Positions 25,022 to 61,763 are shown, numbered from the stretch's first letter. The stretch: DNA of 64,000 nucleotides from Bacteroidetes bacterium GWC2_46_850 (GCA_001768325.1 MENQ01000001.1:124001-188000), one strand, 5' to 3'. The notes: generated by a model not told the origin, from the letters alone. A program made the numbers and translations.

Positions 25022-25024
25022 GAT

Positions 25025-26086: not shown

Positions 26087-26088
26087 TT

Positions 26089-27723: not shown

Positions 27724-27733
27724 ATTGACCTTT

Positions 27734-32138: not shown

Positions 32139-32262
32139 TTTATCGGGTTTGTTTAAAGGTTTGTTATATGTTCATTGTCATTGATCTTTTAGAAACGATC
32201 GGCATTGATCGCAGGCCGTTGTTTATCCGGTCGAGACGGTTTCCTAATGAGGATGAACAAGT

Positions 32263-34638: not shown

Positions 34639-34675
34639 TGTATGGTATAAATTTTCAAACAACGGATTATTGGCA

Positions 34676-37279: not shown

Positions 37280-37289
37280 CGTTCTCTGT

Positions 37290-38963: not shown

Positions 38964-38992
38964 TGTTTTAGGCTGTTTATGCTGGTTAAAGA

Positions 38993-40498
38993 TTACTGCA
39001 ATGATTTATTCAACAGGTAATAGACTTCGTTCACTTTGAGTGCAAACTTAAAGTTGTTGATGGTCGTATCCTTGTCAATTGTCATCAATTCGATGCCGGC
39101 AATATCGGCATAATCTTCAAAATACTCATTGGTGAGTGCATAAGAGAAGGCTGAGTGGTGTGTACCTCCGGCATATATCCAGGCGGCAGCTCCAATCTCA
39201 AGGCTGGGTTGCGGTATCCAGAGAGAACTGGCTACTGGCAGCTTCGGCAGTGATGCTTCGGGCTCAATCACATCAACATTGTTCACAATCATGCGGAAGC
39301 GATTGCCCATGTCCACAATAGTAGCTGCTAATCCGGCACCGGGGTCAGCTGTAAATACCAGTCGCGCCGGATCGGCTTTACCGCCAATACCGAGAGGGTG
39401 CACCTCAAGGCGTGGTTTCTGACTGGTGATCTCTGGTGATATCTCCAGCATGTGCGATTGCAGGATCGCACTTTTTTCACCTTTGAAGTGATAGGTATAA
39501 TCCTCGAGGAAAGAACAGCCTCCCTGGAGTCCCTTCGACATCACCCAGATGGTGCGCAACAGGGCGGCTGTTTTCCAGTCTCCTTCGGCTCCGAATCCGT
39601 AACCTTCTGCCATAAGACGCTGGCTGGCCAGTCCCGGAAGCTGGTTCAATCCATGCAGGGCATCGAAGTTGGTGGTAAATGCTTTCGCATTTTTATCCTT
39701 CAGAAAACAACGGAGTGCTATTTCTATGCGGGCAGCCTCACGTACTTGTCCATAATCTTTTGCTCCCTTTTTGCAATTGTCGGCGAAGGTGTAGAGCTGT
39801 TCATATTCTGTGACCAGTGCATCCACATCCTGTTCGGTCACTTTGTCCTGATAGGCTACCAGATCGCCTATCGAATAATAATCGACATGATAACCCAGTC
39901 GAAGTTCAGCTTCCAGCCGGTCGCCATCGGTCACGGCCACGTTATTCATGTTGTCGCCGAAACGAACAATCACCATGTCCTGTGCATCGGCCCATGCAGC
40001 AGCGACACGCATCCATACAGCAATACGATCCTGCACTTTTTTATCGGACCAGTGTCCGACAACTACTTTTCTGTTCTTACGCATCCGGGTGACGATATGA
40101 CCGAATTCACGATCACCGTGGGCCGACTGGTTCAGGTTCATGAAGTCCATGTCGATTTCACTCCATGGTATCTCCTTGTTGAACTGTGTATGCAGATGTA
40201 GCAGCGGTTTGTGGAAGTTTTGTAGTCCTTTGATCCACATCTTCGCTGGCGAGAAGGTATGCATCCAGGTGATGATGCCGGCGCATTCAGGTGCGGTATT
40301 GGCTTCCTTGAATACTTTCTCCACCTCAGGTGATGAGTTGGCTGTTCCTTTGTAAACGACCTTTACCGGGAGTGTACCGGCGTCATTTAATCCTTTTACA
40401 ATCTCTTCAGAGTGGGCGTTTACCGTAACAACAGCATCGCCTCCGTACAGGAGCTGTGCTCCTGTTACAAACCATACTTCCTGATTCTTGAATTCCAT
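38993..40498 (-). CDS. araA: L-arabinose isomerase
   Basis: VWFVTGAQLLYGGDAV, TWMHTFSPAKMWIKGL, LHTQFNKEIPW, AEGYGFGAEGDWKTAALLR. Confidence 0.97.
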   Translation of the reverse strand: MEFKNQEVWFVTGAQLLYGGDAVVTVNAHSEEIVKGLNDAGTLPVKVVYKGTANSSPEVEKVFKEANTAPECAGIITWMHTFSPAKMWIKGLQNFHKPLLHLHTQFNKEIPWSEIDMDFMNLNQSAHGDREFGHIVTRMRKNRKVVVGHWSDKKVQDRIAVWMRVAAAWADAQDMVIVRFGDNMNNVAVTDGDRLEAELRLGYHVDYYSIGDLVAYQDKVTEQDVDALVTEYEQLYTFADNCKKGAKDYGQVREAARIEIALRCFLKDKNAKAFTTNFDALHGLNQLPGLASQRLMAEGYGFGAEGDWKTAALLRTIWVMSKGLQGGCSFLEDYTYHFKGEKSAILQSHMLEISPEITSQKPRLEVHPLGIGGKADPARLVFTADPGAGLAATIVDMGNRFRMIVNNVDVIEPEASLPKLPVASSLWIPQPSLEIGAAAWIYAGGTHHSAFSYALTNEYFEDYADIAGIELMTIDKDTTINNFKFALKVNEVYYLLNKSLQ

Positions 40499-40524
40499 AT
40501 TTTTTATTTTTTTTGTTGATGTTA

Positions 40525-41211
40525 TTATTGTCCGTAATAGGCACCGGGACCATGTTTCCTGAAGAAATGCTTTTGAACAAGCAGTTGGTTCATGGTGAGA
40601 TTGGGGTTCACCTGTCCGGCAATGAAAGCCATCTTGGCGACCTGCTCCATCACTACGGCATTGTGGACCGCATCATGCGCGTCGTTACCCCATGAAAAGG
40701 GTCCGTGGTTTTTTACCAGTACGCCGGGTATATGGCTCGGATTGAGGTCTTTGAAACGCTCGATGATCACTGTCCCTGTTTCTTTCTCATACGCATCTTT
40801 TACCTCTGCTTCCGTCATGTCGCGTGTGCAGGGGATGTCATCGCTGAAATAATCGGCGTGGGTGGTCCCGATAATGGGGATGTCGCATCCAGCCTGTGCC
40901 CAGGCTGTGGCAAAGGTAGAGTGGGTGTGGACGATACCGCCAATACTGGTGAAAGCCTTATAAAGTTCCAGATGGGTAGCCGTGTCGGAGGAGGGCTTAT
41001 ACCTTCCTTCCACCACCTTCCCTTCCATGTCTGTCACCACCATATCCTCCGCCTTCATTTCGGTGTAGGAAACACCGGAAGGTTTGATGACCACCAGGCC
41101 CTTTTCCCTATCGATTCCACTCACGTTACCCCAGGTAAAGATGACCAGACCGTGTTCAACCAGATCGAGATTGGCCTTGAAAACTGTTGCTTTAAGTTCT
41201 TCTATGTGCAT
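40525..41211 (-). CDS. araD: L-ribulose-5-phosphate 4-epimerase
   Basis: [46 protein letters not shown]; class II aldolase family. Confidence 0.96.
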
Positions 41212-41222
41212 GAAAGTTTTTT

Positions 41223-42764
41223 TTATTGTAGTTCAAGCATTACCACCGATTTGGAGGGAAGTACCACCGACAGGTTGCTGTTCGATAATTTGGCTCCCTT
41301 GAAATCGTTTACCGTCACTTTTGACGGTTGTTCGAAGGTATTGTAATCGTTTATTTGTTCAGATGTGAGAATCTGTCCCTTGATATTTTTCACCGTGGCT
41401 CCAATAAGCTGGGTGTTGATTTGTTGTTCCTGATTGGGGTCGGCATTCACCAGGGTAATATGAATCTTTCCGCTGGCATCTTTCGATGCTGAAACACTGA
41501 CGGCATCAATTTCCTTGTCACCCTGACGATATTTGTTGCTGGTAAAGGAAATCGGAAGAAGCGTGGCATCCTGATGTACTTTATAGAGGTAGAACACCCA
41601 ATAGGTGGGAGTCATTAACATCTTCTCCTCATCGGTGAGCATCACAGCCTGCAACACATTCACTGTCTGAGCAAGGTTGGCCATTTGCACCCGGTCACTG
41701 TGCGCATTGAAGATGTTGAGATTGATTCCCGCTACAATGGCATCGCGCAGTGTGTTTTGCTGATAAAGGAATCCGGGATTTGTACCCGGCTCCACGTTGT
41801 ACCATGTGCCCCATTCATCGATAATCATGCCCACTCGTTTGCGAGGATCGTAACGGTCCATGATCTCACCGTGCTTGGTGATCAGCTCATCCATGAAAAG
41901 AGTCTTTTCGATGGTGGTAAAGTATTCAGCTTCATCGAAGATGGTGGCCGACCCTTTATCACCCCAGTCTTTGGGTACCGTGTAATAATGGAGCGAGAGG
42001 CCCTGCATGTGGCGACCGGCATTCTTCATCACTGTTTCTGTCCAGTTGTAATCGCCACCGTTGGCACCGCAGGCAATCCTGTAAAGATGATTATCCCCAT
42101 AATTGCGGGCGAAAGTGGCATAGTGACGATACAGGTCGGAATAGTAATCGGGTGTCATGTTACCTCCGCAGCCCCAGCTTTCGTTGCCAATGCCCCAGAA
42201 TTTCACCTTCCATGGTTCTTCACGCCCGTTTTGACGACGCAGGTTGGCCATCGGACTTTCGCCGTCAAAAGTAACATACTCAATCCACTTCGACATTTCT
42301 TCCACGGTGCCACTGCCTACATTGGCACTGATATAGGGTTCAGTGTCCATTTGTGCACACAGATCCAGAAATTCATGGGTCCCGAAGCTGTTATCTTCTA
42401 CTACACCTCCCCAATGAGTATTGATCATCTTGGGTCGCTCTGCACGGGGACCGATACCGTCCATCCAGTGATACTCGTCGGCAAAACATCCTCCCGGCCA
42501 GCGCAGGTTTGGGATGCGGATATCTTTTAATGCCTCTACGACATCGTTGCGGATGCCACGTGTATTAGGAATGGAGGAGTCTTCGCCGACCCAATATCCG
42601 CCGTATATACAACGGCCCAGGTGTTCCGAAAAGTGTCCGTAAATGTGGCGGTTGATGGTTGTCTCTCCGCGGTCAGCTTCGATAATCAATCTGTTTTGTG
42701 CCTGCACAGATACGCTGCCAATCAGCAGCAACAGGATAATTTGACATGTTCTTAATCGTCTCAT
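41223..42764 (-). CDS. GH51 alpha-N-arabinofuranosidase
   Basis: [62 protein letters not shown]. Confidence 0.96.
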
Positions 42765-42874: not shown

Positions 42875-44830
42875 CTACCTATCCTCAGTCTGATTTGTTA
42901 TGATCACCCCTCCGCCCGGTTCAATCGTCAGCGCAATCCTGCCGTTTTCTTTTATTTTCAGTGCATTAAACTGAGCCGATCGGTCTTTTTTATCGGAATA
43001 AAGTGAGATACTCTTTCCTGCGAGCATCGGTAGTGTGACATCCATCTTTTTCACCTCTTTTTCTGCGTTAATAGCTGCCATGTACCACTTGTTTGCATGA
43101 CGGCGGGCAAGTACCACATACTTTCCCGGATACCCATCAATATACAGTGTTTCGTCCCATAAAGTAGGGATCTCTTTCATAAAATCGATCACAAATTGGG
43201 GGTATTCCTGTAGATTATTGGGGGTCATCCCGAAATGCTGGATGGGTGTCTGAAATAGGACTGCTGTTGCCAGCTGGAAAATTTCAGTCGTCCTGCGTCT
43301 GTTGCCGCCATCGTTGGATTGGTTGTGTTGTTTATTCAGTAATACCGGCCCGAAATCCATTGAGGCGACACTGTTTCTGATAAACGGATGCAGTGTTGCG
43401 TTGAAGGCCTCCTGATCGTTGGCATGCTGACTGAAGATGAGATTCTCAGAAGCAAGTACTGCTTCACTTCCTGCGAAGTTGGGATACATTATTTCCCATC
43501 CACGGGGCAGGGTACAACCATGGAAAATCACTGCAAGGCCATAATCATTGGCATCAGATAGAATATCCTCGTAGAGTTTCAAGGTCTCCTGCTTGTCACC
43601 TCCAAAGAAATCAACTTTGATTCCTTTCGCACCGATGCTTTGCAGCCATGCCATTTCTTTCTTTCGGGCTACCGATCTGTTCATCTTGTTTTTGGGACCC
43701 TGAGGTGCATCACTCCAGAATCCATTTGAGTTATACCAGAGAGAGATACCTACATCTTTGGAAGCTGCGTAATGGGCCAGTTCTTCAATCTTCTCCCGTC
43801 CGATCCGTGTATCCCACCAGTTATCGATCAGTACCAGTTCGTACCCCAGCGTTGAAGAGAGGTCGATAAAAGTTCTCTGATCATCGACGTTGATGCTGCC
43901 ATCCTGCCAGAGTAGCCAGCTCCAGGTCGATCGTCCGAACTGATAAGCTATGGATGGTTCATAAAGAGGTTCAACCACATCGAACGCGATTGTTGTCTCC
44001 ACGATCGGCTTTAGATTATCACCTATTGTAATTGTGCGCCAGGGAGTCTCGCCGGGCAAAGAGATCGAGGGATTGGCACTTCCGATCCCATTGTTTTCCC
44101 CTTCCTCGGGAAAGGCTACAGTGTAGAGACCTTCCTTTGTGCCTTCGCTTAGTTTGCTGCCACAATAAAGGCTGCCGACTCCTGTTTCGGAGACTAATGC
44201 CCAACCACGATCGCCCACATGGAACAGACCCGGGAAAGTGTATCCAACACCATACTTTGATGGCGTGCCTACAGGTTCGTCCGGCACATACACCTCCTCA
44301 TAGCTGGGTTTGGTTTTCATCCACCCTATCATGGGTGTAGCCTGCGGGGTGAGGAAGGTGGTGGTGAATGAAGGAAAATTGAAACCGGTCAATTCCCTTT
44401 CTACGGTGCAGCGTGCCGTTTCTCCATTCTGAGACAGGGCATATTTGAACGCAATATCGTTGTTGCTCACTCTGAAAATCAGACTTATTTTTTCTTCACG
44501 TGAAGTCCGATAGGTGGCAGTTACTTCATTTGCCCCATAGGTAACGGTGCTTTTCTTGATTTTCGGGTCAGCGTATGTTTTATTGATCGTCTGTATGTTT
44601 TTTTCTACAAATTGCAGATCACGACTGAAATCGCTCACGTTGGTAATCAGCCCAAGGGGCGAATCTTCAAGAATGGTTTTCTCTTTGTAAGTGACGCTGT
44701 AATAAATGCTTCCGTTCACAAGTGCCACTGCCACCACCAGGTTGTTATCCGGGCTCCTGATTTCAATCTGATCTGCCGAAGCCGGAATCAGAAGAAAGAG
44801 TGACAAGAGACCGAGGATTATTTTTTTCAT
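42875..44830 (-). CDS. GH97 family glycosidase
   Basis: N-terminal IEIRSPDNNLVVAVALVNGSIYYSVTYKEKTILEDSPLGL; catalytic-domain GAKGIKVDFFGGDKQETLKLYEDI and HGCTLPRGWEIMYPNFAGSEAV. Confidence 0.92.
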   Translation of the reverse strand: MKKIILGLLSLFLLIPASADQIEIRSPDNNLVVAVALVNGSIYYSVTYKEKTILEDSPLGLITNVSDFSRDLQFVEKNIQTINKTYADPKIKKSTVTYGANEVTATYRTSREEKISLIFRVSNNDIAFKYALSQNGETARCTVERELTGFNFPSFTTTFLTPQATPMIGWMKTKPSYEEVYVPDEPVGTPSKYGVGYTFPGLFHVGDRGWALVSETGVGSLYCGSKLSEGTKEGLYTVAFPEEGENNGIGSANPSISLPGETPWRTITIGDNLKPIVETTIAFDVVEPLYEPSIAYQFGRSTWSWLLWQDGSINVDDQRTFIDLSSTLGYELVLIDNWWDTRIGREKIEELAHYAASKDVGISLWYNSNGFWSDAPQGPKNKMNRSVARKKEMAWLQSIGAKGIKVDFFGGDKQETLKLYEDILSDANDYGLAVIFHGCTLPRGWEIMYPNFAGSEAVLASENLIFSQHANDQEAFNATLHPFIRNSVASMDFGPVLLNKQHNQSNDGGNRRRTTEIFQLATAVLFQTPIQHFGMTPNNLQEYPQFVIDFMKEIPTLWDETLYIDGYPGKYVVLARRHANKWYMAAINAEKEVKKMDVTLPMLAGKSISLYSDKKDRSAQFNALKIKENGRIALTIEPGGGVIITNQTEDR

Positions 44831-44854: not shown

Positions 44855-44862
44855 CAAAAATA
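44855..44862 (-). promoter_or_regulatory. Putative -7 element of GH97 promoter
   Basis: Minus strand TATTTTTG (TAnnTTTG), 21 nt downstream of the repeat motif. Confidence 0.5.
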
Positions 44863-44883: not shown

Positions 44884-44914
44884 GGTAGAGAAATAGATAC
44901 AGATGGTGGATAAA
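44884..44914 (-). promoter_or_regulatory. Putative HTCS operator, copy 1 (upstream of GH97)
   Basis: Minus strand TTTATCCACCATCTGTATCTATTTCTCTACC; two half-sites 21 bp apart. Confidence 0.65.
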
Positions 44915-44995
44915 TCAGTAAAATTGTCGTCAAAATCCTGATTCTCGGAATTTGACGACAATTATTTTATTGATTGGAAACTACACAGTTCCTAT

Positions 44996-46504
44996 TTATT
45001 TAATTTTTTTACCCCATACCGAACGACCATCTTCATCGAGTCCGGTCAGAAGGATCGTGCGTGTTTGATTTTCCCAGTCCTGTCCTTCAAATATATGTAA
45101 ATTACGGAATGCTTTATTTCTTAAAGTAAGGGTCATCATCTGATCTTTTTTAGAGAAGCTCCATGAACCATTGTCGCTCGTAGTACCATTATCATTCAGG
45201 TGCACAGGAAATGAGTCGTTCCATTCCTCTTTCTTTAAACTGCCCTCGCCCCACATAATCTGCCCCGCTTCTAGCTGTCTGTCATAAACAGATTCTCTGA
45301 TTCTGATCATCTCCCATTCTCCGGCAATATCCTTTTCTTTAACCTTCCATTCACCGTCACCAGCGTACCTTTGTGGTGATACGACCGGCCATCCGTCTGG
45401 AGTAAAAAAAAGCTCTCTCACGTGTAGTACCATCAGTTGATTTCCCGGTGACAAACGCCCTTGGTGTACCATGAAGTAACGTCCCTCTCCAGTGGCCATC
45501 ACACCGCAATGTCCCGTGCCTGCCCATCCGGTATGATGATTGAACCTGTATGGCGCCATGATCACAGGATAATTATTGGTCGTATCATTCAGGTTCTTTC
45601 CGAAATAATCATAAAAAGGTCCTTCCGGTCGGTCTGATCGTCCCACCCGAATATTGTAGGTGGTCATGAGCGGGTCATATGAAACAAAAAGAAAATATTG
45701 TTTCAATTGGGGGTTATAGATTATCTCCGGAGCTTCAAGGTTGTCTTTCCTGTAGTTGGCTCTTCGGGCTATCAAGTGACCCAGATCATCTTTTTTACGG
45801 GTTAATCCTGTGACAGGATCGAGCTCCACACAATACAATCCCCCAAAATACGAACCATAGTGCATCCATATCTTTCCGTTATCCACATCTTCAACAATTG
45901 TTGGATCGATGGCGTTCATGGGTGTCTGGCTGTTGCTTCTCACAACTGCCCCTTTTTGTTCCCAGGGTCCCTCCGGGGTATTGGATTCGGCCATCCCTAT
46001 CCAGGATGTTTTTTTCCCAAATGCCGAGACACTGTAGTAAAGCCGGTACTTGTCCTCTTTTTTTATTACGTAGGGCGCCCATATGTTTGTTGCCCCTCTT
46101 CCTGCGTTGTGAGCATGTACCCATTCCACAGCCTCCTGCGGAATATCGGAGAAAGCCCAACCTACAAAATCCCACTGAACAAGATCTTTCGATCTTCTGA
46201 TCTGGATGTTACCGAGAGGAACGTTTTTCTCTCTGGCACGTTCTCTATTTTCTGCAAAAATTGCATCGGTGGAGTAGATGTAATAATAATCACCGAATTT
46301 TTTGATAGCCGGATCGTGCACATTATAGGTCCCCCATTCTTTGTAATGTTCCATAGCAGAGAGATACGTATAGTCATCGGTCCATGGATTCGTTTTGACC
46401 GTCGGAATTGGAGATTGTTGTACTTGTTTACAAGAGAACAATAAAAGAAACAGTGAAACGGCAAAGAGGTTTCTTAATCGCAGTTGGGGGTATTTTTTAT
46501 TCAC
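44996..46504 (-). CDS. GH43 lipoprotein (endo-arabinanase/arabinosidase-like)
   Basis: YNVHDPAIKKFGDYYYIYSTD, AIDPTIVEDVDNGKIWMHYGSY, EAPEIIYNPQLKQYFLF; lipobox LLLFSCKQ; GTG start 46504 proposed. Confidence 0.9.
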   Translation of the reverse strand: MNKKYPQLRLRNLFAVSLFLLLFSCKQVQQSPIPTVKTNPWTDDYTYLSAMEHYKEWGTYNVHDPAIKKFGDYYYIYSTDAIFAENRERAREKNVPLGNIQIRRSKDLVQWDFVGWAFSDIPQEAVEWVHAHNAGRGATNIWAPYVIKKEDKYRLYYSVSAFGKKTSWIGMAESNTPEGPWEQKGAVVRSNSQTPMNAIDPTIVEDVDNGKIWMHYGSYFGGLYCVELDPVTGLTRKKDDLGHLIARRANYRKDNLEAPEIIYNPQLKQYFLFVSYDPLMTTYNIRVGRSDRPEGPFYDYFGKNLNDTTNNYPVIMAPYRFNHHTGWAGTGHCGVMATGEGRYFMVHQGRLSPGNQLMVLHVRELFFTPDGWPVVSPQRYAGDGEWKVKEKDIAGEWEMIRIRESVYDRQLEAGQIMWGEGSLKKEEWNDSFPVHLNDNGTTSDNGSWSFSKKDQMMTLTLRNKAFRNLHIFEGQDWENQTRTILLTGLDEDGRSVWGKKIK

Positions 46505-46559
46505 AGTGTTTTCTACTTTGAGATTCAGCTGCAAACAAACTGTAATTCTTTAACCAAAA

Positions 46560-46590
46560 GGTAGAGAAATGAACACAGAAGGTGGATAAA
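46560..46590 (-). promoter_or_regulatory. Putative HTCS operator, copy 2 (upstream of GH43, in HTCS/GH43 divergent region)
   Basis: Minus strand TTTATCCACCTTCTGTGTTCATTTCTCTACC; half-sites 21 bp apart. Confidence 0.65.
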
Positions 46591-46645
46591 ACGAACGTTT
46601 CGAGAAATCGGTTCTTTTTTAACTTATTTAGGTGGATAATTATTT

Positions 46646-46653
46646 TACTTTTG
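46646..46653 (+). promoter_or_regulatory. Putative -7 element of HTCS gene
   Basis: TACTTTTG (TAnnTTTG) 20 bp upstream of the start codon. Confidence 0.45.
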
Positions 46654-46672
46654 TGATTATTGAAAGGGTATC

Positions 46673-49600
46673 ATGAAAAGAAAAGTTATTTATTTAATTG
46701 GCATTTTGCTTCTTCAATCTGTTTTTTTACATGCACAGAAGTTCACCGGTGACACCTATAATATACAGTTTGTCACCATGGATAATGGCCTTTTGCATCA
46801 TTATATCGATGATATATACAAAGATAAGACAGGCTATCTCTGGTTCTCCACCGGAGGCGGACTCTCCCGATACGATGGATACAAGTTTGTGCATTACAAC
46901 ATGAATTCAGCACCTGTAGCCTTGAAAGGGAATTTTATCCATAAGGTGTGTGAAGATAATTTCAGCAGGTTATGGATTGCCTCTGAAGGTGGTTTGGATG
47001 TGCTTGATCTGAGAAAGAATGAGAAAGTGGATCTGTTTTCAGATGTGGATACGCTACGATTATCTTTTCCTGATACCCCGGTGATCAATATACTGAAAGA
47101 TTCAAAAGGTGATATATGGCTTTATTCCAATAGTATATATAAAATAGGTCTCAAGGATGACGGCTCAATTCAGGATATTCTCCTTTATGGCGATGAGCTT
47201 CAATCTGAACTATTTGTAGCCCTGGCCGATATTGACAATGATGGAAATATATGGGCAGGTTTCAACAATGAAGTATTTAAATTGTTTCCAGCAGCGAGCG
47301 GCCAACTTGAAGCTGTATCGGTATCTGATAAGTTGCAATTCGACACCAAAACAATGATCATGAAATTCCTGCTCAAGGAGAATGATGTATGGATAGGAAC
47401 TGATCGTGGGTTGTACAGATATTTCATAAACGAAGATGTTTTGAAAATATACAGGAGCAATGCCGATGATCCACATGCCCTCTCGCACGATTATGTATCT
47501 GAGCTGGCCCTGACTGATTCCCGGCAATTGATTGCCGGCACGCTGAAAGGAATCAATCTCTATAACTCCTCATCGGATGCGTTCGATCAGATTGCCGAAG
47601 ATAACACGACAGACGGACTGGGACTAAACAGTAACTTTATCAATACGATATTCTACGAGGAGGGTATTCTATGGCTGGGTACCGAGACAGGAGGTGTGAA
47701 TAAACTCTCTCCCGGGAATTCATTCATCAGAAACTACACACACGACAAAAATATCAAGGGATCCATTTCCAGAAACCCTGTGAATGTAATCCTCGAGGAT
47801 GAGAAGGAACAACTCTGGATAGGTACTGTTGAGGGCGGATTAAATCTGAAGAGGAAAGATCAGGAGTCTTTTACTCATTATACCTCATCGTCAACGGCCC
47901 GGTTAAGTCACAATTCTGTGAGTGCTTTAAGCATGGATGGTGAGCAACGATTATGGACCGGTACGTGGGGTTACGGGGTCACACTGCTTAACATGAATGA
48001 TGCCGACAAAGGACCGGTTAAGTATATCAATACCGGCAACTATCCCGGTTTTTTTCTTGATTTTGTGGGTGCACTCTCATACGACAAGCTGAACAATGCC
48101 ATGTGGATCGGAACGAACCAGGGTCTCTTTTATTATGATATAGAAAAAGACAGTCTCCAAAAACCCTTCCGCGACAACCTTTCGGATCATATCAACGGAA
48201 TTATCGGATCGATGATAGACAGTGATAATCAATTATGGCTGGGATGTTCCGAAGGGGTCTACGTCATCGATCTCAACAAGCCGAGAGATTCTTTTTTTTC
48301 ATACGATCACCTGAAATATAAGCTCGATAATCCACAATCCAAGCTGGTGGAGCGAATCACTAGCTTCTGCATTGACACAGATGGCATTTTATGGCTGGGT
48401 AGTGATGGTTTCGGTATATATAAGCGCACGATCAATGATGATGGATCTTATTCCTTTCAGTCATTTACTACTTCACACGGATTAGCCAACAACAATGTGA
48501 AAGGTTTGCTGGAGGATGACAAGGGTAACCTGTGGATCAGTACGATTAATGGATTATCATGCTACAACAAAAAAACCGACAGTTTCACCAATTATTATGA
48601 GGAGGATGGACTTGTTTCGGGCCAGTTTTACTGGAACGCATATATCAAGACAAAAAGTGGGCTGCTCTATTTTGGAACTCTAAACGGTCTGGTGGCCGTA
48701 AACCCGGAGATGATCAGTTCGGATGCCGCTGAATACAGGGTTACACTGACCGATTTCTATGTGAACAACGAAAGGATAAACCCTGGAAGAATAATCAGGG
48801 AAGATATCTCAGTGACAGATAAAATTACACTTCACGAGAAAACAAGATCATTCTCCATCGATTTCTCCGCGCTGAACTATCGTGCCATAAGCAATTATGT
48901 GTATGCCTATCAGTTGGTGGGATATGATGAGAGTTGGATTGAACTGGATAAAGACGGTCATTCGGTAACCTATATGAACCTGCCGGCAGGAAATTATGAG
49001 TTCCAGGTTAAATACGTGCCCAAAGATCAGCTCCAAACTGGGGAGATCACACAGATTTCAGTTTATATAAAGCCCTATTTCTATAAAACAGGGTGGTTTA
49101 TCTCCCTTATGATCCTGTTGGCCATTCTCGTTGTCATCATGTTGCATTTCTGGCGGGTCAGATCGTACGAGCATCAACAGAAAGTGTTGAAGCAGATAGT
49201 AGATGACCGTACAGGAGAGATAGAAAAGCAGAAAGAGGTACTGACTGCGCAGAAGAATGAACTTTCTCAACGCAATGAACTGCTGAGTTCACAAAATGAA
49301 AAGATCACACGACAAAAAGAGCAGTTGGTCGGAATGTCCCAAAAAATGCGGAAGATGACTACCGAGCGTCTCGATTTCTTCACCAATATCTCTCATGAAT
49401 TTCGTACACCTATTACTCTGATTGTGGGTCCTGTGGAAAGAGCACTTAAATTAAGTACCAATCCCTATGTGATTGAACAGCTTAATTTCGCTGAAAGAAA
49501 CGCCAGGTACCTGCTTACATTAATCAATCAGTTGATGGATTTTCGCAAAATAGAGTCCAATAAGCTGGAGATAATCTATACCGCCGGCAATTTTCAGGAA

Positions 49601-50920
49601 TTCATGGAGTCTGTAATATCTCCCTTCGAATTTCAGGCCGGTGACAGGGATATTCAAATATTGAGGAGGTTCGATTTGGAAGATCGGTTTTTTTATTACG
49701 ATGATGAAGGCTTGCGAAAGATAATGACCAATCTGTTGTCAAACGCCATCAAGTACACTCCGAACAAGGGTGAGATCACGGTCTATGCAAAATCATTCAG
49801 TGAGACCTCTACAAACAGTCACAAGCTTTACATTGCGGTGAAGGACAGTGGTGCAGGTGTTCCAGAGGAAGATAAGGAGAAGGTGTTCAGGCGGTTCTAT
49901 CAGTCAAGTAATCACCTGCGTTATCCGGTACATGGTCAGAGCGGTACCGGTATCGGCCTTTATCTGACCAAACAGGTTGTGGAAGCGCTGGGTGGCAACA
50001 TATGGCTTAAGAACAATAAAAAAGCCGGTACCACCTTCCGGATTGTTTTGCCACTGCACAAGCTGAATCCTCAAGTACAGGTCATGAAGCATGAGCGTCG
50101 TTTTCCCGCAGATGAGGAAGACCTACATGTACAAAATCTGCGAAACTGGCAGAAGGAGCGCCTTACCTTCCTTGTAGTGGAAGATAACAGAGATATGTGC
50201 CGGTATGTATGTTCCCTGCTATCTCCTTATTACAACACACTTGAGGCAGGCAACGGAGTGGAAGCATTGAAAATACTGGAACATTATAATGTTGATTTCA
50301 TTATCAGTGATTTGATGATGCCGGAAATGGATGGGCTGGAACTCTCCAAAAATGTGAAGGAAAACTTCACCCTATCTCACATCCCTTTTTTGATGCTCAC
50401 TGCAAAGACATCGGAGAAAGCACGAACCGATAGTTATCGGATGGGCGTTGATTCTTATATTGTGAAGCCGTTTGATGAAGATATGTTAATTGCACGTATC
50501 CGTAATATTCTGGAAACGAGGGAGAGATATCAGCAGAGATTCATCGATGATATGTCGGTAGACATCCTGGAGATCAGCGAAGAATCGAATGATAAAAAGT
50601 TTATGGATCGGGTGCTCGTGGTGATGAAGGAAAATTACCAGAACTCCTATTTCGAGGTGAGTGATTTTGCCGAAACCGTCGGTGTAAGTAAGTCGCTGAT
50701 GAATAAAAAACTAAAGGCCCTGAGCGGCAAGTCCGCCGGAGAGTTTATCCGGATCTACAGGTTAAATCTTGCTTATAATATCATTCTGCAGAATAAAAAA
50801 ACCAAAAATAAAAACATTGCAGATATAGCATATGAAGTGGGATTCAATGATCCCAAATATTTTACCCGTTGTTTCTCCAAACAATTTGATATCACTCCCA
50901 GTAAGCTGCTTGAAAAGTAG
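46673..50920 (+). CDS. Hybrid two-component system regulator (periplasmic propeller/Y_Y_Y sensor, histidine kinase, receiver, AraC HTH)
   Basis: Reg_prop repeats, HEFRTPITLIVGP H-box, GTGIGLYLTKQVVEALGG, receiver DFIISDLMMPEMDGLEL, C-terminal AraC HTH (NIADIAYEVGFNDPKYFTRCFSKQFDITPSKL). Confidence 0.96.
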   Translation: MKRKVIYLIGILLLQSVFLHAQKFTGDTYNIQFVTMDNGLLHHYIDDIYKDKTGYLWFSTGGGLSRYDGYKFVHYNMNSAPVALKGNFIHKVCEDNFSRLWIASEGGLDVLDLRKNEKVDLFSDVDTLRLSFPDTPVINILKDSKGDIWLYSNSIYKIGLKDDGSIQDILLYGDELQSELFVALADIDNDGNIWAGFNNEVFKLFPAASGQLEAVSVSDKLQFDTKTMIMKFLLKENDVWIGTDRGLYRYFINEDVLKIYRSNADDPHALSHDYVSELALTDSRQLIAGTLKGINLYNSSSDAFDQIAEDNTTDGLGLNSNFINTIFYEEGILWLGTETGGVNKLSPGNSFIRNYTHDKNIKGSISRNPVNVILEDEKEQLWIGTVEGGLNLKRKDQESFTHYTSSSTARLSHNSVSALSMDGEQRLWTGTWGYGVTLLNMNDADKGPVKYINTGNYPGFFLDFVGALSYDKLNNAMWIGTNQGLFYYDIEKDSLQKPFRDNLSDHINGIIGSMIDSDNQLWLGCSEGVYVIDLNKPRDSFFSYDHLKYKLDNPQSKLVERITSFCIDTDGILWLGSDGFGIYKRTINDDGSYSFQSFTTSHGLANNNVKGLLEDDKGNLWISTINGLSCYNKKTDSFTNYYEEDGLVSGQFYWNAYIKTKSGLLYFGTLNGLVAVNPEMISSDAAEYRVTLTDFYVNNERINPGRIIREDISVTDKITLHEKTRSFSIDFSALNYRAISNYVYAYQLVGYDESWIELDKDGHSVTYMNLPAGNYEFQVKYVPKDQLQTGEITQISVYIKPYFYKTGWFISLMILLAILVVIMLHFWRVRSYEHQQKVLKQIVDDRTGEIEKQKEVLTAQKNELSQRNELLSSQNEKITRQKEQLVGMSQKMRKMTTERLDFFTNISHEFRTPITLIVGPVERALKLSTNPYVIEQLNFAERNARYLLTLINQLMDFRKIESNKLEIIYTAGNFQEFMESVISPFEFQAGDRDIQILRRFDLEDRFFYYDDEGLRKIMTNLLSNAIKYTPNKGEITVYAKSFSETSTNSHKLYIAVKDSGAGVPEEDKEKVFRRFYQSSNHLRYPVHGQSGTGIGLYLTKQVVEALGGNIWLKNNKKAGTTFRIVLPLHKLNPQVQVMKHERRFPADEEDLHVQNLRNWQKERLTFLVVEDNRDMCRYVCSLLSPYYNTLEAGNGVEALKILEHYNVDFIISDLMMPEMDGLELSKNVKENFTLSHIPFLMLTAKTSEKARTDSYRMGVDSYIVKPFDEDMLIARIRNILETRERYQQRFIDDMSVDILEISEESNDKKFMDRVLVVMKENYQNSYFEVSDFAETVGVSKSLMNKKLKALSGKSAGEFIRIYRLNLAYNIILQNKKTKNKNIADIAYEVGFNDPKYFTRCFSKQFDITPSKLLEK

Positions 50921-50990
50921 ATAAATGAAAAATACCGCGCATAAACAGTATGTGAGCAGGCCTAAATAGTTAAAAGATAAGGGTTGCTCA

Positions 50991-51021
50991 TTTCTCCACC
51001 TTATTTCATCTTTTGTCCACC
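50991..51021 (+). promoter_or_regulatory. Putative HTCS operator, copy 3 (upstream of SGBP-SusCD operon)
   Basis: TTTCTCCACCTTATTTCATCTTTTGTCCACC; half-sites 21 bp apart, -7-like AATCTTTG 20 nt downstream. Confidence 0.65.
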
Positions 51022-51204
51022 ATTGTTCAATGAACTATTCGAATCTTTGCACATATTAAAGTATGTTTTTATAGTCAAAAGTTGTTTAATTTCTTTTCGA
51101 CCTTTTTGCGATACGATCGTGTGTCTGAGAAAAGAGATTGAATCAATGCGATGAATTTGACTTGTCGGGTCAGAACTTTAATGAATAGAATAATATATTA
51201 CCGT

Positions 51205-52920
51205 ATGAAAACAACAAAACTAATGAAAGGCGCATTATTCGCAGCAATTTTGGGGACTTTTGTCCTGATCGGGTGCGAAAAACTGGATACCTACACAATT
51301 GTAGCGCCCTCCGACCTGCAAAACAGGATTGATTCAATTGCGGCCGAAAAGGCGAAACATTCCACCGGCGATACTACTTATATCGACATAACCACAGCCA
51401 TTGTTGGAGCTGAAGATAACAGTGCTGCCTGGTGGACCGCTTTCTCTGATTATTTTGCTATTCCGGTAAACAAGCTGTTGCATCTGGAGTTCGTGAACCA
51501 CGGCACCGGTGTCAACAACTGGAACAACTGGAACCTTGCCGTTACCAATGAAGTGGCAGATCGTGATGGTGATGGCTACAAGGAGTATTTTGTGCTCCGT
51601 TCCGATGCATATGGCTGGGGGGGCACCATGGCTGACGACGGTTATGCCTACGATGCTGGCATGATCTCCTTCGACTATCCGGACACCGATGGTGATGGCG
51701 ATATATGGAACGACTTCCGCACCACCATGCAGGGTGCCCTTGTTACCCTTGAAATCGATCATTCGTCTACCGGCAATGTATTTGTAACGGCTACAGCAGT
51801 CGGCACAAATGGTGTTGAACTGGTGATGACTTACCAGCAACCGGTTTCTGCTGCCAATAATATCGTCGCTTTTTTGGTTTGCGATGGCAGCTATTTTGAA
51901 ATGAAGAAAGCTTACCTCATACCATCGAAGGTTACAGTTGTGGAAGATGTTGCACCGGTGTCCATTGAGGTGGAGGGTGCTCCCGAGTTTGTGGAGTTTG
52001 GAAACGAAGATTTCTGGGGTGATGCTGTCGCCACAGTAACCTATGCCGACGGATCATCTGAACAGGTGAGTCCTGATGACATCTCCTTTACCGTTATACC
52101 TGATATGACGACACTTGGAGAAAAAACAGTAATTGTTGCCTATAGTAAAACAAAACAAGGTGCATACGGTCGCGCTGTCTCAACCTTCTACACACTGGAG
52201 GTTACAAATCCGGTGGCAGAGATGGAGATTACGACCATGCCTGATATCACAACATACTATTTTTACGATGCTGATTCGATCGTTTTCGATAAAAAAGGAC
52301 TGGTAGTTACTGCCACCTATTCCGATGGGTCAATTGGAGTACTTGCTAACTCCGGTCTCCAATTCAGCAAGATTCCTGCTGTAGAAGGATCGCAAAATGC
52401 GATAATCACCTACAAGGGTGCCACTGGTAATGTGACTGTCAATTGTCCGTTAACTCTAATAAAGGGAACAGGACAGGTAGGCTTTACCGACTTCTCCACG
52501 CCCTGGTGGAGTGAATTCTCAGATGACTTCCCCGTTGCTGCGGGTGAGAGCAAGATAATAACCATGTATTGCTATTCCAATAATTTGCAACCCTATCACA
52601 GCCCAAGCACAATTCTGCGCAAAGCCGATCTGACCGAATATGGGGTGGTACGTATGGACAACTTCGGCTGGGGCGACGGCTATGCAACCGCTACGGCCAC
52701 ATCAGACTGGAACTGGGATACATTCGCTTCTAACATCAATGGGTCAAAAGTGGTAATTACGGTCACCAACAACGGTGATAATACAGCCGATGTGCTTTAC
52801 AATGTAACTTATACTACCGGCGAGACCCACTTCCAGAAGTATGAGGGTTTCACGGTAGACAGCTCTGATCTGAATTGTACGCTTGTATTAGAGGGAGCAT
52901 ACCTTGTACTTGTAAATTAG
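51205..52920 (+). CDS. Putative surface glycan-binding lipoprotein with duplicated terminal domains and Ig-like repeats
   Basis: Lipobox (FVLIGCEKLD); WWTAFSDYFAI...SDAYGWG and WWSEFSDDFPV...MDNFGWG repeats flank two Ig-like segments; precedes SusCD. Confidence 0.7.
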   Translation: MKTTKLMKGALFAAILGTFVLIGCEKLDTYTIVAPSDLQNRIDSIAAEKAKHSTGDTTYIDITTAIVGAEDNSAAWWTAFSDYFAIPVNKLLHLEFVNHGTGVNNWNNWNLAVTNEVADRDGDGYKEYFVLRSDAYGWGGTMADDGYAYDAGMISFDYPDTDGDGDIWNDFRTTMQGALVTLEIDHSSTGNVFVTATAVGTNGVELVMTYQQPVSAANNIVAFLVCDGSYFEMKKAYLIPSKVTVVEDVAPVSIEVEGAPEFVEFGNEDFWGDAVATVTYADGSSEQVSPDDISFTVIPDMTTLGEKTVIVAYSKTKQGAYGRAVSTFYTLEVTNPVAEMEITTMPDITTYYFYDADSIVFDKKGLVVTATYSDGSIGVLANSGLQFSKIPAVEGSQNAIITYKGATGNVTVNCPLTLIKGTGQVGFTDFSTPWWSEFSDDFPVAAGESKIITMYCYSNNLQPYHSPSTILRKADLTEYGVVRMDNFGWGDGYATATATSDWNWDTFASNINGSKVVITVTNNGDNTADVLYNVTYTTGETHFQKYEGFTVDSSDLNCTLVLEGAYLVLVN

Positions 52921-53032
52921 AAATCAACAAATAAATGATCGTATGAGATGAGCCTGAGAAGCATTTTACACAAGTGAAATGATTTGAATGCGAGTTTCCT
53001 GTGATGCTTTGAAAAATTAAAAGTTTTATCAT

Positions 53033-56000
53033 ATGAAATACACATTATTATTCCTGTCTGGATTACTGACACTCGCGCCGGCAGCATTTGCTGAAAGTAA
53101 CAGAAATGCAGGTCAGATGAAATTGATGCAGGCAGGTGAAATTACGGTGAAGGGCAAAGTGATTGACGAAGATGGCGAACCGCTTCCCGGAGCAACGGTT
53201 CAACAACCGGGAACAACCAAAGGCACCGTTACGGGGACAGATGGCAGTTTCTCTCTTTCGGTACCTTCCGATGCAACACTGGTTATCTCTTTCGTGGGAT
53301 CTAAAAGCGTAGAGATTAATGTAGAGGGAAGAACCAATCTGGGTGTGATTGGCATGGTCTCTGACTTACAGGTGCTCGACCAGGTGGTGGTTGTAGGATA
53401 TGGAACACAACGCAAGGTGGACCTTACCGGTTCAGTGGCCGTGGTCAACACCGATGAGATGAAGAAAGTCTCCCATTCCAATATCTCGACCATGCTTGAA
53501 GGGAAAATTGCCGGTGTCCAGATTACTTCAGATGGACAACCGGGTGCCGATCCCACAGTACGTATCCGAGGTATCAGCTCTTTTGGCAGTACCGCTCCCC
53601 TTTACGTGGTAGATGGAGTTCCCATGGGAACAACCATTCGTGACTTCTCTCCAAATGATATCGAGACATTGCAGGTATTGAAGGATGCTTCTGCAGCTGC
53701 TATTTATGGGTCCCGTGCAGCCAACGGTGTGGTGATCATCACCACCAAGCAGGGTGTCAGAAATAAACCGATGAAGATTGACTACAGTGGTTATATGGGC
53801 GTAGACCAGGTGCGAAGTGGTGTGTATGATGTGATGGATGCCAAACAGTATGGTCAATACATCAACATGGCATTCCAGAACAGCAACATGGATGTTCCTG
53901 CCGGCTACAATCCTGCAAGTGAAAAATATATCGATCCCGGTGTGGTGAACACCAACTGGTTCAATGAGGCGTTCAAGACAGGTATTCGTCAGAATCACAA
54001 CATCAACATCTCCGGTGGTGGTGCCAACAACACCTATAACATCGGCCTCGACTATTTCAAACAGGAGGGAACCATGGTGGGAGCCGGTCCTAACTTTGAA
54101 CGTTACACGGCGCGTATCAACAATACCATGGATGCCAAGTTCGTCAAGCTTCAGACCAACATTGTCTATAGCCACAGCGACCAGGATAATATGGCACTTA
54201 GCAATGCCAACGAGTATGTTCAGGGACTCTATGGAGCTCAATATCCAGTAATGGCTTCGGCACTGCTTTTGCCTCCCACCATCAAAGCATATGATGAATC
54301 GACCTGGGTGCTCGATGACAAAATCTCGGCTGCATCACAATACAGCTATGACTCTTACGGGTATGGCACCTACTATGATGATGTACATGGCGACCTGCGT
54401 GTCACCAATGTGCTGCTCACCAACAGTCTGCTGGAGAGAAATGCAGTGGTCGACCGTGTTGTTGCCTCCGGATCAGCAACGGTTGACCTCATTGACATGG
54501 TGGGCCGGGAGAGCAAAAATCACACGTTCGACTATAAACTGAACCTCTCCTACAGCAAGACCTATGCAAAGGATTTCACCTTCGTTCCTGCGTTTATTCA
54601 GAGTACAACCAATTACCTCTCAAAGAGCAATGAGAACCTGTCGCAGGGATATCGCAACTACAGCGATGCACTGATGGAAAACCTGTTGACTTACGACGGG
54701 AAATTTGGAAGAAATCATCTCAACGTAGTGCTTGGTCAAACCTTCCAACGCGAGCTCTATCATACGTTAACCGGCAAAGGGGTTAACTTGCCTGAACCTT
54801 ATTACCTGCAGGTAAACAATGCGGAGGAAACATCCGCAACAAGCTTCGAGAGCGAGCACGTGCTGGCCTCCTATATTGGACGTGTAAACTACAATTTCGA
54901 TGAGAAGTATCTTCTCTCAGCAACAGTCCGCCGTGATGGATCCAGTCGTCTTTCTTCTGAGGATCGCTGGGGCTGGTTCCCATCGGTATCGGCAGGCTGG
55001 CGCATGGAACGTGAAAACTTCTTTCCTGTAGATCCCTCTATCATCAACCTGCTGAAGCTTCGCGGAAGCTATGGTGAACTGGGAAACGAGAACATTGGTG
55101 AATACCAATACATGGATATCATGGCAAGAGGTAATTACACCTACAGCTTCGGGAATAACAAAGTTACCGGTTCAGCTATTTCAAACTACGTAAATACCGC
55201 TATCCGATGGGAGAAGAAGAAAATGCTCGACGTGGGACTCGACCTGGCAATGTTCAACAACAAGCTGGAGTTCAACATCGACTGGTACAAGGCAATCTCG
55301 GAAGATCTGCTCTATAGTGTTGCTGTGCCTGCAAATGCGGGTGCTACCAATGCAACGGTAACGATGAACGCTGCGACAATGGAAAACAGCGGACTTGAGT
55401 TCCTGGTTACCTACCGCAATCGCCACGATGATTTCAGGTATGATCTCACTGCCAACTTCTCAACCCTCAGCAACAAGGTGACCAAGCTGGGTGTTTCAGG
55501 AGAACCGCGTAACGATAGTTACAGCCGCACAGAGGTAGGTCGTGAAGTGGGCTCCTTCTACGGATACGCCTACGAGGGAATCTTCCAGTCGCAGGAGGAG
55601 ATTGATAACCGTGTGAACGACGAAGGAATGTACATCAATCAGCCAGGGGCACAACCGGGTGATGTGGCTTATGCCGACCTCAATAACGACGGTGAAATCA
55701 CCAACGAAGACCAGACGTTTCTGGGGAGTGGTATCCCCAAGGTGCATTTTGGCCTGAATGCTCGTCTTGAATGGAAAGGTTTTGACCTCAGCTTGTCGAC
55801 CTATGGCGCTGCAGGATTCAAGGTGGTCGATTTTGTGGATGTGACGTTACGTAGCTCATACGGCATGCTCAACAAAAGTGTGGATATGTTGAATGCCTGG
55901 AGCCCGGACAATATGAACACCGATGTGCCGCGCGTGGCATACAAAACGGCCGGTTCAATCACCAATGACATGTTCAGCAAGCGCTTCCTGCAGGATGCAT

Positions 56001-56230
56001 CCTATCTGAAGATTGCCAACATCACTCTCGGTTATAATTTCCCGGACAAATGGTTTGGCAGTTATCTGAACAATGTGCGTATTTATGCAACATCCCAGAA
56101 TCTGGCTACATTGAGCAAATACAGGGGATACAACGTGGATTTCGCCGGTGGCACTTTTACACCCGGCTACAACTATTCATCCTATCCGACCCCACGCTCC
56201 CTGATGCTTGGTGTGAACTTTTCATTCTAA
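53033..56230 (+). CDS. SusC-like TonB-dependent outer membrane transporter
   Basis: VKGKVIDEDGEPLPGATVQQPGTTKGTVTGTDGSFSL, VVVGYGTQRKVDLTGSVAVV, C-terminal PRSLMLGVNFSF. Confidence 0.97.
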   Translation: MKYTLLFLSGLLTLAPAAFAESNRNAGQMKLMQAGEITVKGKVIDEDGEPLPGATVQQPGTTKGTVTGTDGSFSLSVPSDATLVISFVGSKSVEINVEGRTNLGVIGMVSDLQVLDQVVVVGYGTQRKVDLTGSVAVVNTDEMKKVSHSNISTMLEGKIAGVQITSDGQPGADPTVRIRGISSFGSTAPLYVVDGVPMGTTIRDFSPNDIETLQVLKDASAAAIYGSRAANGVVIITTKQGVRNKPMKIDYSGYMGVDQVRSGVYDVMDAKQYGQYINMAFQNSNMDVPAGYNPASEKYIDPGVVNTNWFNEAFKTGIRQNHNINISGGGANNTYNIGLDYFKQEGTMVGAGPNFERYTARINNTMDAKFVKLQTNIVYSHSDQDNMALSNANEYVQGLYGAQYPVMASALLLPPTIKAYDESTWVLDDKISAASQYSYDSYGYGTYYDDVHGDLRVTNVLLTNSLLERNAVVDRVVASGSATVDLIDMVGRESKNHTFDYKLNLSYSKTYAKDFTFVPAFIQSTTNYLSKSNENLSQGYRNYSDALMENLLTYDGKFGRNHLNVVLGQTFQRELYHTLTGKGVNLPEPYYLQVNNAEETSATSFESEHVLASYIGRVNYNFDEKYLLSATVRRDGSSRLSSEDRWGWFPSVSAGWRMERENFFPVDPSIINLLKLRGSYGELGNENIGEYQYMDIMARGNYTYSFGNNKVTGSAISNYVNTAIRWEKKKMLDVGLDLAMFNNKLEFNIDWYKAISEDLLYSVAVPANAGATNATVTMNAATMENSGLEFLVTYRNRHDDFRYDLTANFSTLSNKVTKLGVSGEPRNDSYSRTEVGREVGSFYGYAYEGIFQSQEEIDNRVNDEGMYINQPGAQPGDVAYADLNNDGEITNEDQTFLGSGIPKVHFGLNARLEWKGFDLSLSTYGAAGFKVVDFVDVTLRSSYGMLNKSVDMLNAWSPDNMNTDVPRVAYKTAGSITNDMFSKRFLQDASYLKIANITLGYNFPDKWFGSYLNNVRIYATSQNLATLSKYRGYNVDFAGGTFTPGYNYSSYPTPRSLMLGVNFSF

Positions 56231-56256
56231 TACTGAAATTTAAATAAGACAATCGT

Positions 56257-58011
56257 ATGAAAAATTTAAATATCATCCTTTTAACATTGATTCTTCTTGG
56301 AGGCTTGACAGCCTGCAACGACCAGCTCAATGTGGAGAACCCCAACAATCAGACCACCTACGATTTTGGCGACTCGGAGTCTGAATTGCAGGAGGCCATC
56401 ATTTCCTGTTACAACCGTATCCGTCTGGAAGGTTCATTTGCCCGTGTGGGCTATACCATGGATGCCGTGCGTGGTGATGAGGTCTGGAACTCCTCTCAAC
56501 AGTGGTATCTGGAGTATGACAATCTCAACTCACCGGGAACGATTGAGATTGGAGACCAGTGGATCTGGCGTGATTGGTATCATGTGGTGAACCGGACAAA
56601 TTTTGTGTTGTCGAAAGTGGATGCCGTCGAGATGCCGCAGGAGTCATACAATCAGATTGCCGGACAGGCACTCTTCCTGAGATCCCTGGCTTACTATCAC
56701 CTCTCTACATATTATCAGACGGTACCCTTGATTACCGACTACGCCTCCTATTCCGATATCAACACCATGTATGCACCCAACAATAGCCAGGAGGAGGTGT
56801 TTGACCAGATTGAGATTGACCTGACCTCAGCGATGGAGATGCTTCCCTCACGCGATAAGGGGGGCGAATGGGCACAGGGACGTGCCACAAGCGGTGCTGC
56901 TGCCGGATATATGGCCCGGGCATTGATGTTCCGCCATAAATTTTCTGAGGCATACGCCATCCTGAAAGATATCATTGGCGGCAAGTACGGACATTATGCG
57001 CTCACTGCCGACTATGGCGATAACTTCAGAGAAGGTTCACCCTACGAGAACAATGCAGAGAGCCTCTTCGAGGTGCAATTCCTGGATTATGGAACAGGAG
57101 GTACCGACGAGGAGTGGACACCGGTTAACATTAGTTCGGAAGCCACCCAGGGGCACGCTGTTGAGAGCAACTATGCTTCTCAGGAATTGGGCAGCTGGGG
57201 TGACCTGGCCGGCTCACCCTGGTTGTACAACCTGTTTATAAAGGAGAATTCCACCGATGGTCGTCTCGACCCTCGTTTGTACTGGACGCTGGTCACCTTC
57301 GAAGAGGAATACAGTACCTATACCAACCAGAAAACGGCTGCCTATCCCAACGGAGACCCTCGCAGCAATGTGGTTTATCAGAATGAAATCACCCAAACAC
57401 CCTTGTCGAACAATGCCCAGGGTGGTATTTCCATCGCCAAGTTCACCAATGCGAGAAACAACATCTACAGCTCCATTACCAACGGATTGCATTGTGGAGT
57501 AAATCTTCGCCTCATGCGTTACAGCGATGTATTGCTGCGCGCTGCCGAGTGTGAGAATGAGATCAACGGTCCCACCCAAACGGCGATCGATTATATCAAC
57601 CAGGTACGCCGTCGTGTGGCACTACCCGACCTTATTCTTTCAGACTTCCCCTCTGCTGATGCTCTTTTCGAACAGATCGCAAACGTGGAACGGCCCAAGG
57701 AGTTTGGGTGCGAGAACGGACGTGGTATCGACTTGCTTCGCTGGGGATTCTTCTACGATCAGGGGCGTCTGAATCAGTTGGTAGAACATGGTTATTACAA
57801 GCGTGACGGAACAGCTTCAACCGAAGAGCTCACAGCCGAAACCGCTGACGATTCATCGTTCAATTATTACTACAAGGGACATGAATATTTTCCCATCTAT
57901 CAATCCACGCTGAACGATAACCCAAACCTTGTTGGAAACTCTGCAAACAAGAACGAAGATAACGGACCTGTGTTCAAGGAGAAATACAATATTCGTCCTG
58001 TTGTACAATAG
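56257..58011 (+). CDS. SusD-like starch/glycan-binding lipoprotein
   Basis: Lipobox (GGLTACNDQLNVENPNN); FLRSLAYYHLSTYYQTVPLI; RYSDVLLRAAECENEINGPTQTAIDYINQVRRR. Confidence 0.95.
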   Translation: MKNLNIILLTLILLGGLTACNDQLNVENPNNQTTYDFGDSESELQEAIISCYNRIRLEGSFARVGYTMDAVRGDEVWNSSQQWYLEYDNLNSPGTIEIGDQWIWRDWYHVVNRTNFVLSKVDAVEMPQESYNQIAGQALFLRSLAYYHLSTYYQTVPLITDYASYSDINTMYAPNNSQEEVFDQIEIDLTSAMEMLPSRDKGGEWAQGRATSGAAAGYMARALMFRHKFSEAYAILKDIIGGKYGHYALTADYGDNFREGSPYENNAESLFEVQFLDYGTGGTDEEWTPVNISSEATQGHAVESNYASQELGSWGDLAGSPWLYNLFIKENSTDGRLDPRLYWTLVTFEEEYSTYTNQKTAAYPNGDPRSNVVYQNEITQTPLSNNAQGGISIAKFTNARNNIYSSITNGLHCGVNLRLMRYSDVLLRAAECENEINGPTQTAIDYINQVRRRVALPDLILSDFPSADALFEQIANVERPKEFGCENGRGIDLLRWGFFYDQGRLNQLVEHGYYKRDGTASTEELTAETADDSSFNYYYKGHEYFPIYQSTLNDNPNLVGNSANKNEDNGPVFKEKYNIRPVVQ

Positions 58012-58030
58012 GAATTAATTGCTTAATTTA

Positions 58031-58077
58031 GAGACTTCCTTATTGACTTCACTTCTGCATGTTGATAAGGAAGTTTC
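58031..58077 (+). other. Intercistronic hairpin between susD and GH43 gene
   Basis: gagacttccttat ... ataaggaagtttc, 13-bp stem with one G-U pair. Confidence 0.55.
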
Positions 58078-58097
58078 CAGCTTTAAAAATTAGAGAA

Positions 58098-61705: not shown

Positions 61706-61763
61706 ATCATTCTAGCTTGGTTGGTTTTCATTTCAAAAAACTGTCTCTGTGCATGACAATCGG

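Follow-up and report, generated by a model that had tools for sequence, protein, structure and literature searches.

Predicted operators of an arabinan HTCS in a Dysgonomonadaceae-like genome, and matching sites beside short relatives of the regulator

Introduction

The 64,000-nucleotide stretch of DNA considered here (the window) contains a PUL with a gene for a hybrid two-component regulator (HTCS). Three copies of a 31-bp direct repeat stand upstream of genes of this PUL, and an earlier note on the same DNA had proposed that they are the binding sites of the HTCS and define its regulon. This raises the question of which protein reads the repeats, and what it does to the promoters in which they lie. 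From the sequence we infer that the three 31-bp sites are very probably operators bound by the adjacent arabinan HTCS. This reading is supported by the rarity of the sites, their restriction to the PUL, their co-occurrence with HTCS orthologs, and their presence before orthologous targets. It would provide a letter-level predicted operator for an arabinan regulator outside Bacteroides, in a fixed promoter register, and with these two properties the regulon should be readable directly from genomes of the order.

The locus and its regulator

The HTCS is a single chain of the hybrid two-component type, in which Pfam recognises a propeller sensor, Y_Y_Y, HisKA, HATPase, REC and AraC HTH domains. 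Its relatives in the PDB are 4a2l (an HTCS sensor) and 12aw (the receiver and DNA-binding part of an HTCS). The nearest named relative is a Proteiniphilum assembly (family Dysgonomonadaceae), with an HTCS that is 78% identical. Pfam agrees with the gene neighbours given in the earlier note (GH97, GH43, HTCS, SusC and SusD), and the gene content points to an arabinan locus.

GH97 is followed by a closely spaced string of genes encoding GH51, an araD-type epimerase, AraA, an FGGY kinase, a GH51-like protein, GH127 and GH51, with which it presumably forms one operon. SGBP (by domain search a surface protein with an Ig-like domain), SusC, SusD and a second GH43 are likewise presumed to be one operon. 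The genes for arabinose catabolism (araD type, araA and FGGY kinase) lie at 37290-42764 on the minus strand, behind operator 1, and HTCS control of arabinose catabolism may therefore be direct. The window also contains type I restriction-modification genes, recognised by Pfam as HsdR, HsdS, an AAA_13 protein and HsdM (20758-28498, plus strand), and one NrtR-type regulator is found elsewhere in the genome.

Table 1. Features of the locus and of related loci (positions are those of the window unless a locus is named)
Feature	Position	Strand	Remarks
Operator 1, TTTATCCACCATCTGTATCTATTTCTCTACC	44884..44914	-	GH97 upstream region; sequence, pattern search, motif-blind recovery
Operator 1 half-sites	44914-44905 and 44893-44884	-	
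Operator 2, TTTATCCACCTTCTGTGTTCATTTCTCTACC	46560..46590	-	GH43 upstream region, inside the HTCS/GH43 divergent gap
Operator 2 half-sites	46590-46581 and 46569-46560	-	
Operator 3, TTTCTCCACCTTATTTCATCTTTTGTCCACC	50991..51021	+	upstream of SGBP-SusC-SusD
Operator 3 half-sites	50991-51000 and 51012-51021	+	
-7 box TATTTTTG, GH97 promoter	44855..44862	-	21 nt after operator 1
-7 box TTTGTTTG, GH43 promoter	46532..46539	-	20 nt after operator 2
-7 box AATCTTTG, SGBP-SusCD promoter	51042..51049	+	20 nt after operator 3
HTCS regulator, 1415 aa	46673..50920	+	Pfam and sequence
GH43	44996..46504	-	behind operator 2; Pfam; likely GTG start 46504, kept in relatives
GH97	42875..44830	-	behind operator 1; Pfam; likely ATG start 44830
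String after GH97	30174..42764	-	ORFs and Pfam; presumed operon with GH97
SGBP, SusC, SusD, GH43	51205..59777	+	behind operator 3; ORFs, Pfam, NCBIfam; likely SGBP ATG start 51205; presumed operon
Short regulators, about 990 aa	L225:6758-9718, loci L301-L314		genus g203, another family; next to SusCD promoters with operator

Three exact sites within one PUL

The three 31-mers described in the earlier note were found letter for letter, each at the position and on the strand given for it, and the two half-sites are exactly 21 bp apart in all three. A search of the window for TTTNTCYACC-N11-TTTNTCYACC, allowing 2 mismatches at most, returned four matches, three of them exact, where shuffles predict 0.03. 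The fourth match, at 14953 with 2 mismatches, was rejected because the -7 box is absent at the right place. Genome-wide (3.75 Mb) these three are the only exact copies and the next best carry 2 mismatches, while base composition predicts approximately 0.0006 exact copies per genome. The earlier note had named random scatter across the genome as evidence that would count against the operator, and in the genome-wide search every exact copy lay inside the arabinan PUL. Looser genome scans (2-3 mismatches) gave counts at the level of the reversed control, and the regulon was not extended on their basis.

The same places were recovered by a motif-blind search, which looked outside long ORFs for two 10-mers at least 8/10 alike and 21 bp apart, and also required an approximate -7 box 19-22 nt downstream. 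Applied to the PUL, this search returned exactly the three operator places and nothing else. The family half-site consensus is TTTGTCCACC, degenerate at position 4.

The proposal that the operator defines the regulon holds for the three promoters; for the neighbouring GH43-GH2 pair (59783-63911) no operator is found within the window. Nor does any site in these 64 kb face the HTCS gene. A single additional half-site, ATTATCCACC, is present on the minus strand of the HTCS/GH43 gap (46640-46631), 50 bp upstream of operator 2. It is weaker in most relatives and has no 21-bp partner, and no role in HTCS autoregulation is claimed for it.

Promoter register and the sign of regulation

The promoter consensus in Bacteroidota is TAnnTTTG at -7 with TTTG near -33 (PMC7366714). 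TTTG-ending -7-like elements had been noticed 20-21 nt after the sites, and they are present at all three; TATTTTTG fits TAnnTTTG in full, and TTTGTTTG and AATCTTTG in 5/6 letters. The TTG starts chosen by the ORF caller for GH97 and GH43 fall within the -7 boxes (likely start codons are given in Table 1). In 28 loci that hold HTCS-lineage genes or sites of theirs, TTTG begins 24 or 25 nt after the site at 38/39 sites (up to 2 mismatches). The commonest -7 boxes at these sites are TATATTTG, AATCTTTG, TATTTTTG or TTTGTTTG, and in aligned promoters the site and the -7 box are the main conserved block.

Because 20-21 nt separate the end of the proximal half-site from the -7 box, this half-site occupies the position of the -33 box. 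In class II activation of the AraC type, the proximal half-site overlaps the upstream promoter element. By analogy, the regulator is likely a class II activator, which would substitute for the missing -33 contact.

The HTCS could also bind the sites and repress, or do both depending on its phosphorylation. Position by itself leaves the sign unsettled, and some HTCSs do repress, such as BT2391, in which the contact motif departs from S/CHIP-DK (PMC11253607). However, the receiver of the window's HTCS keeps the SHIP part of this motif, as in the majority of these regulators, which are typically locked until phosphorylated. Further, the site seems to replace the -33 box without covering the -7 box, an arrangement that fits an activator, and BT0366 is itself an activator (PMC5061871). 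We consider repression unlikely, and activation remains the preferred reading.

Conservation of the sites with the HTCS lineage

Within the genus, 11 of 39 genomes encode an HTCS ortholog of at least 50% identity, and 9 of these 11 hold an exact copy; the remaining 28 congeneric genomes, which are without such an ortholog, hold 0 exact copies (hypergeometric p ~3e-7 for the co-occurrence, with genomes treated as independent of shared ancestry). At the level of family or order, a site with up to 2 mismatches is present at the HTCS locus in 13 of the 16 genomes whose HTCS shares 50% identity or more. The assignable genes downstream of relatives' sites are mostly orthologs of the window's GH43, GH97 or SGBP, and in relatives' promoters each operator keeps its position, operator 1 before GH97 orthologs, operator 2 before GH43 orthologs and operator 3 before SGBP orthologs. 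The site also recurs in more distant families and in many genomes with an HTCS 40-50% identical; at 41-50% it precedes GH43-like or GH51 genes, mostly with TTTGTCCACC in one or both halves. Targets and HTCS gene need not be linked: in G422 the HTCS gene and three promoters with the site lie on different contigs, the promoters preceding orthologs of GH43 (49%), SusC (59%) and GH43 (58%).

The spacing is constrained too: in relatives 31 same-strand half-site pairs are at distance 21, and the remaining 60 distances between 10 and 70 together account for 7. The AraC recognition helices are kept in the site-bearing orthologs and differ from those of the genome's other HTCSs. Order-wide there are 5 exact hits in 393 genomes (3 being those of the source genome) against approximately 7 in the reversed-pattern control. 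This raw count is not above the control, so the argument at this level rests on linkage: the foreign exact hits, in G423 and G207, each share a contig with a nearby HTCS-lineage gene and have the -7 box in register.

Some genomes depart from this pattern. In G051 and G054 the HTCS ortholog is 59% identical, and the locus holds only one half-site, with the correct -7 box; that of G051 stands before GH51. No site was found in G044, G124 or G094. An exact match in G097 was attributed to chance, having neither a -7 box in register nor an HTCS ortholog, and a 2-mismatch copy in G087 is without a -7 box and may be a relic. In three genomes (G011, G022 and G013; loci L178, L180 and L181) a further weak or partial half-site lies beside the operator, resembling three tandem units.

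The GH43 and GH97 sites have the spacer letters TCTGTxTyxA in common, both in the source genome and in relatives. This would be expected if duplication of a single ancestral promoter had produced the repeats and they were alike without selection for binding. However, the SGBP site combines the same half-sites with a different spacer, and across species the flanks diverge while the half-sites and the -7 box persist. At an HTCS identity of 45%, matching half-sites flank unrelated spacers. Duplication may explain the common spacer, but not the maintained half-sites, and as an explanation of the repeats it is highly improbable; selection for binding by the HTCS is the reading that we retain.

Short regulators beside the same operator

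The unexpected part for a specialist is a kinase-less branch in which the operator is retained. In G423 the exact operator precedes a SusC ortholog (59%) and lies beside an intact frame of 986 aa. The encoded protein resembles the window's HTCS in its sensor, which is followed by a membrane span, a linker and then directly by the AraC domain; HisKA, HATPase and REC are absent. Pfam on L225:6758-9715 returned only Reg_prop, Y_Y_Y, SGL-like and AraC HTH domains, with neither a kinase nor a receiver among them. Another 13 short regulators agree with L225 in length and tails, and a relative without internal stops is present in 18/60 sampled g203 genomes, nearly all of similar length.

At the short-regulator loci the paired half-sites before SusC are exact in 11/14, carry one mismatch in 2/14 and have a spacing of 22 in 1/14. 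TTTG is in register at 13/14 of these loci, and their SusC is 57-61% identical to that of the window. The 14 short proteins form one strongly supported clade in the sensor tree and again in the AraC-domain tree, and in both it falls inside the lineage of the window's HTCS, apart from the source genome's other HTCSs. The linker contains an LQxRIxxIL stretch resembling the last receiver helix, which suggests an internal deletion. As judged from their sequences, the short regulators are descendants of HTCSs but are not HTCSs themselves. We think it probable that the g203 branch lost kinase and receiver, apparently once, and kept the 21-bp operator, in a natural conversion of a two-component to a one-component system. 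A literature search, incomplete in subscription journals, returned no description of kinase-less propeller-AraC regulators, an absence which is weak evidence.

Retention of the operator in this branch strengthens the view that the operator follows the AraC domain and not the phosphorelay. If this is true, operator and sensor could work via either a phosphorelay or direct transmembrane coupling. Recent work on the receiver lock (PMC11253607) raises the question whether an HTCS must be phosphorylated in order to read its operator at all, or only for release of the DNA-binding domain, and the kinase-less branch would be a natural experiment that makes this testable.

Other regulators and the proposed mechanism

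The genome encodes some ten other HTCS-like proteins that have an AraC domain, and the sites might serve one of these, or a stand-alone AraC protein or Crp-like global activator, acting on the same genes. G051 and G054 also hold a distant 1-mismatch site, 16-23 kb from another HTCS, which could be taken in the same sense. A global factor or one from another PUL, however, would have sites elsewhere in the genome, and every exact one lies in the arabinan PUL. Across genomes the sites co-occur with the arabinan HTCS lineage, and in another family they are retained next to its kinase-less descendants. The motif-blind search of the ten HTCS-like paralog loci found no half-site like that of the arabinan operator, and returned one plausible, different repeat, AAAATTAGGG-N11-AAAAATAGGG. 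Control of these sites by another regulator is quite unlikely in our view, and the arabinan HTCS is retained as their reader.

The repeat from the paralog search is located at L282:6994-7024 on the minus strand, as a direct repeat (AAAATTAGGG / AAAAATAGGG) 21 nt before a -7-like box and near another HTCS. A 21-bp direct repeat, ATCTTCCCCC / ATTTTCCCCC, also follows a Mediterranea HTCS (34% identical) at L014:12075-12105, with a -7 box 20 nt on, and is a candidate for a diverged operator.

In the mechanism proposed for the arabinan HTCS, sensing of an arabino-oligosaccharide in the periplasm would lead to phosphorylation of REC, which would release the DNA-binding domain and so permit binding to the operator. 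A dimer of the C-terminal AraC domains would read the two same-direction half-sites, two helical turns apart. Binding would then bring about transcription of GH43, of the string from GH97 to arabinose catabolism, and of SGBP-SusCD.

Comparison with known systems

The type of operator described here is already known, direct repeats approximately 21 bp apart having been predicted for 16 HTCSs of B. thetaiotaomicron (Ravcheev 2013; PMC3878776), and the sites of the arabinan HTCS add a well-supported member. As with the repeats of that study, a 21-bp direct repeat lies upstream of HTCS-linked PUL operons and is kept before orthologs. By layout the locus is like that of HTCS_Ara-1 (BT0366), with a direct repeat of approximately 21 bp upstream of PUL operons, arabinan-type targets, and an HTCS with a C-terminal AraC HTH in the same locus (PMC3878776). 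BT0366 has been shown by EMSA to bind the promoters of its PUL and is required for them to be induced; it does not bind the promoter of the B. thetaiotaomicron arabinose operon (PMC5061871). In B. thetaiotaomicron that operon is separate, whereas here araD, araA and the kinase gene stand behind the PUL operator. The hosts also differ, the source genome being Dysgonomonadaceae-like and thus from another family. For HTCS footprints the literature search, again incomplete in subscription journals, found nothing decisive, and this absence too is weak evidence.

In operators of the AraC I1-I2 type, used by AraC/XylS activators, two half-sites point in the same direction at a spacing of 21 bp, and the proximal one overlaps the upstream promoter element. 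The sites described here are alike in spacing, in direction and in the position of the proximal half-site. They differ from AraC I1-I2 in the promoter, which is of the Bacteroidota type (TAnnTTTG), and in the regulator: in place of a soluble sugar-binding protein it is an HTCS that spans the membrane.

The short regulators can be compared with SusR, a one-component membrane regulator that likewise links sensing in the periplasm to DNA binding across the membrane and has no phosphorelay. No AraC domain can be recognised in SusR, for which sites with a spacing of 67 or 77 bp have been predicted (PMC3878776). The short regulators, unlike SusR, combine an HTCS propeller sensor with an AraC domain and the 21-bp operator.
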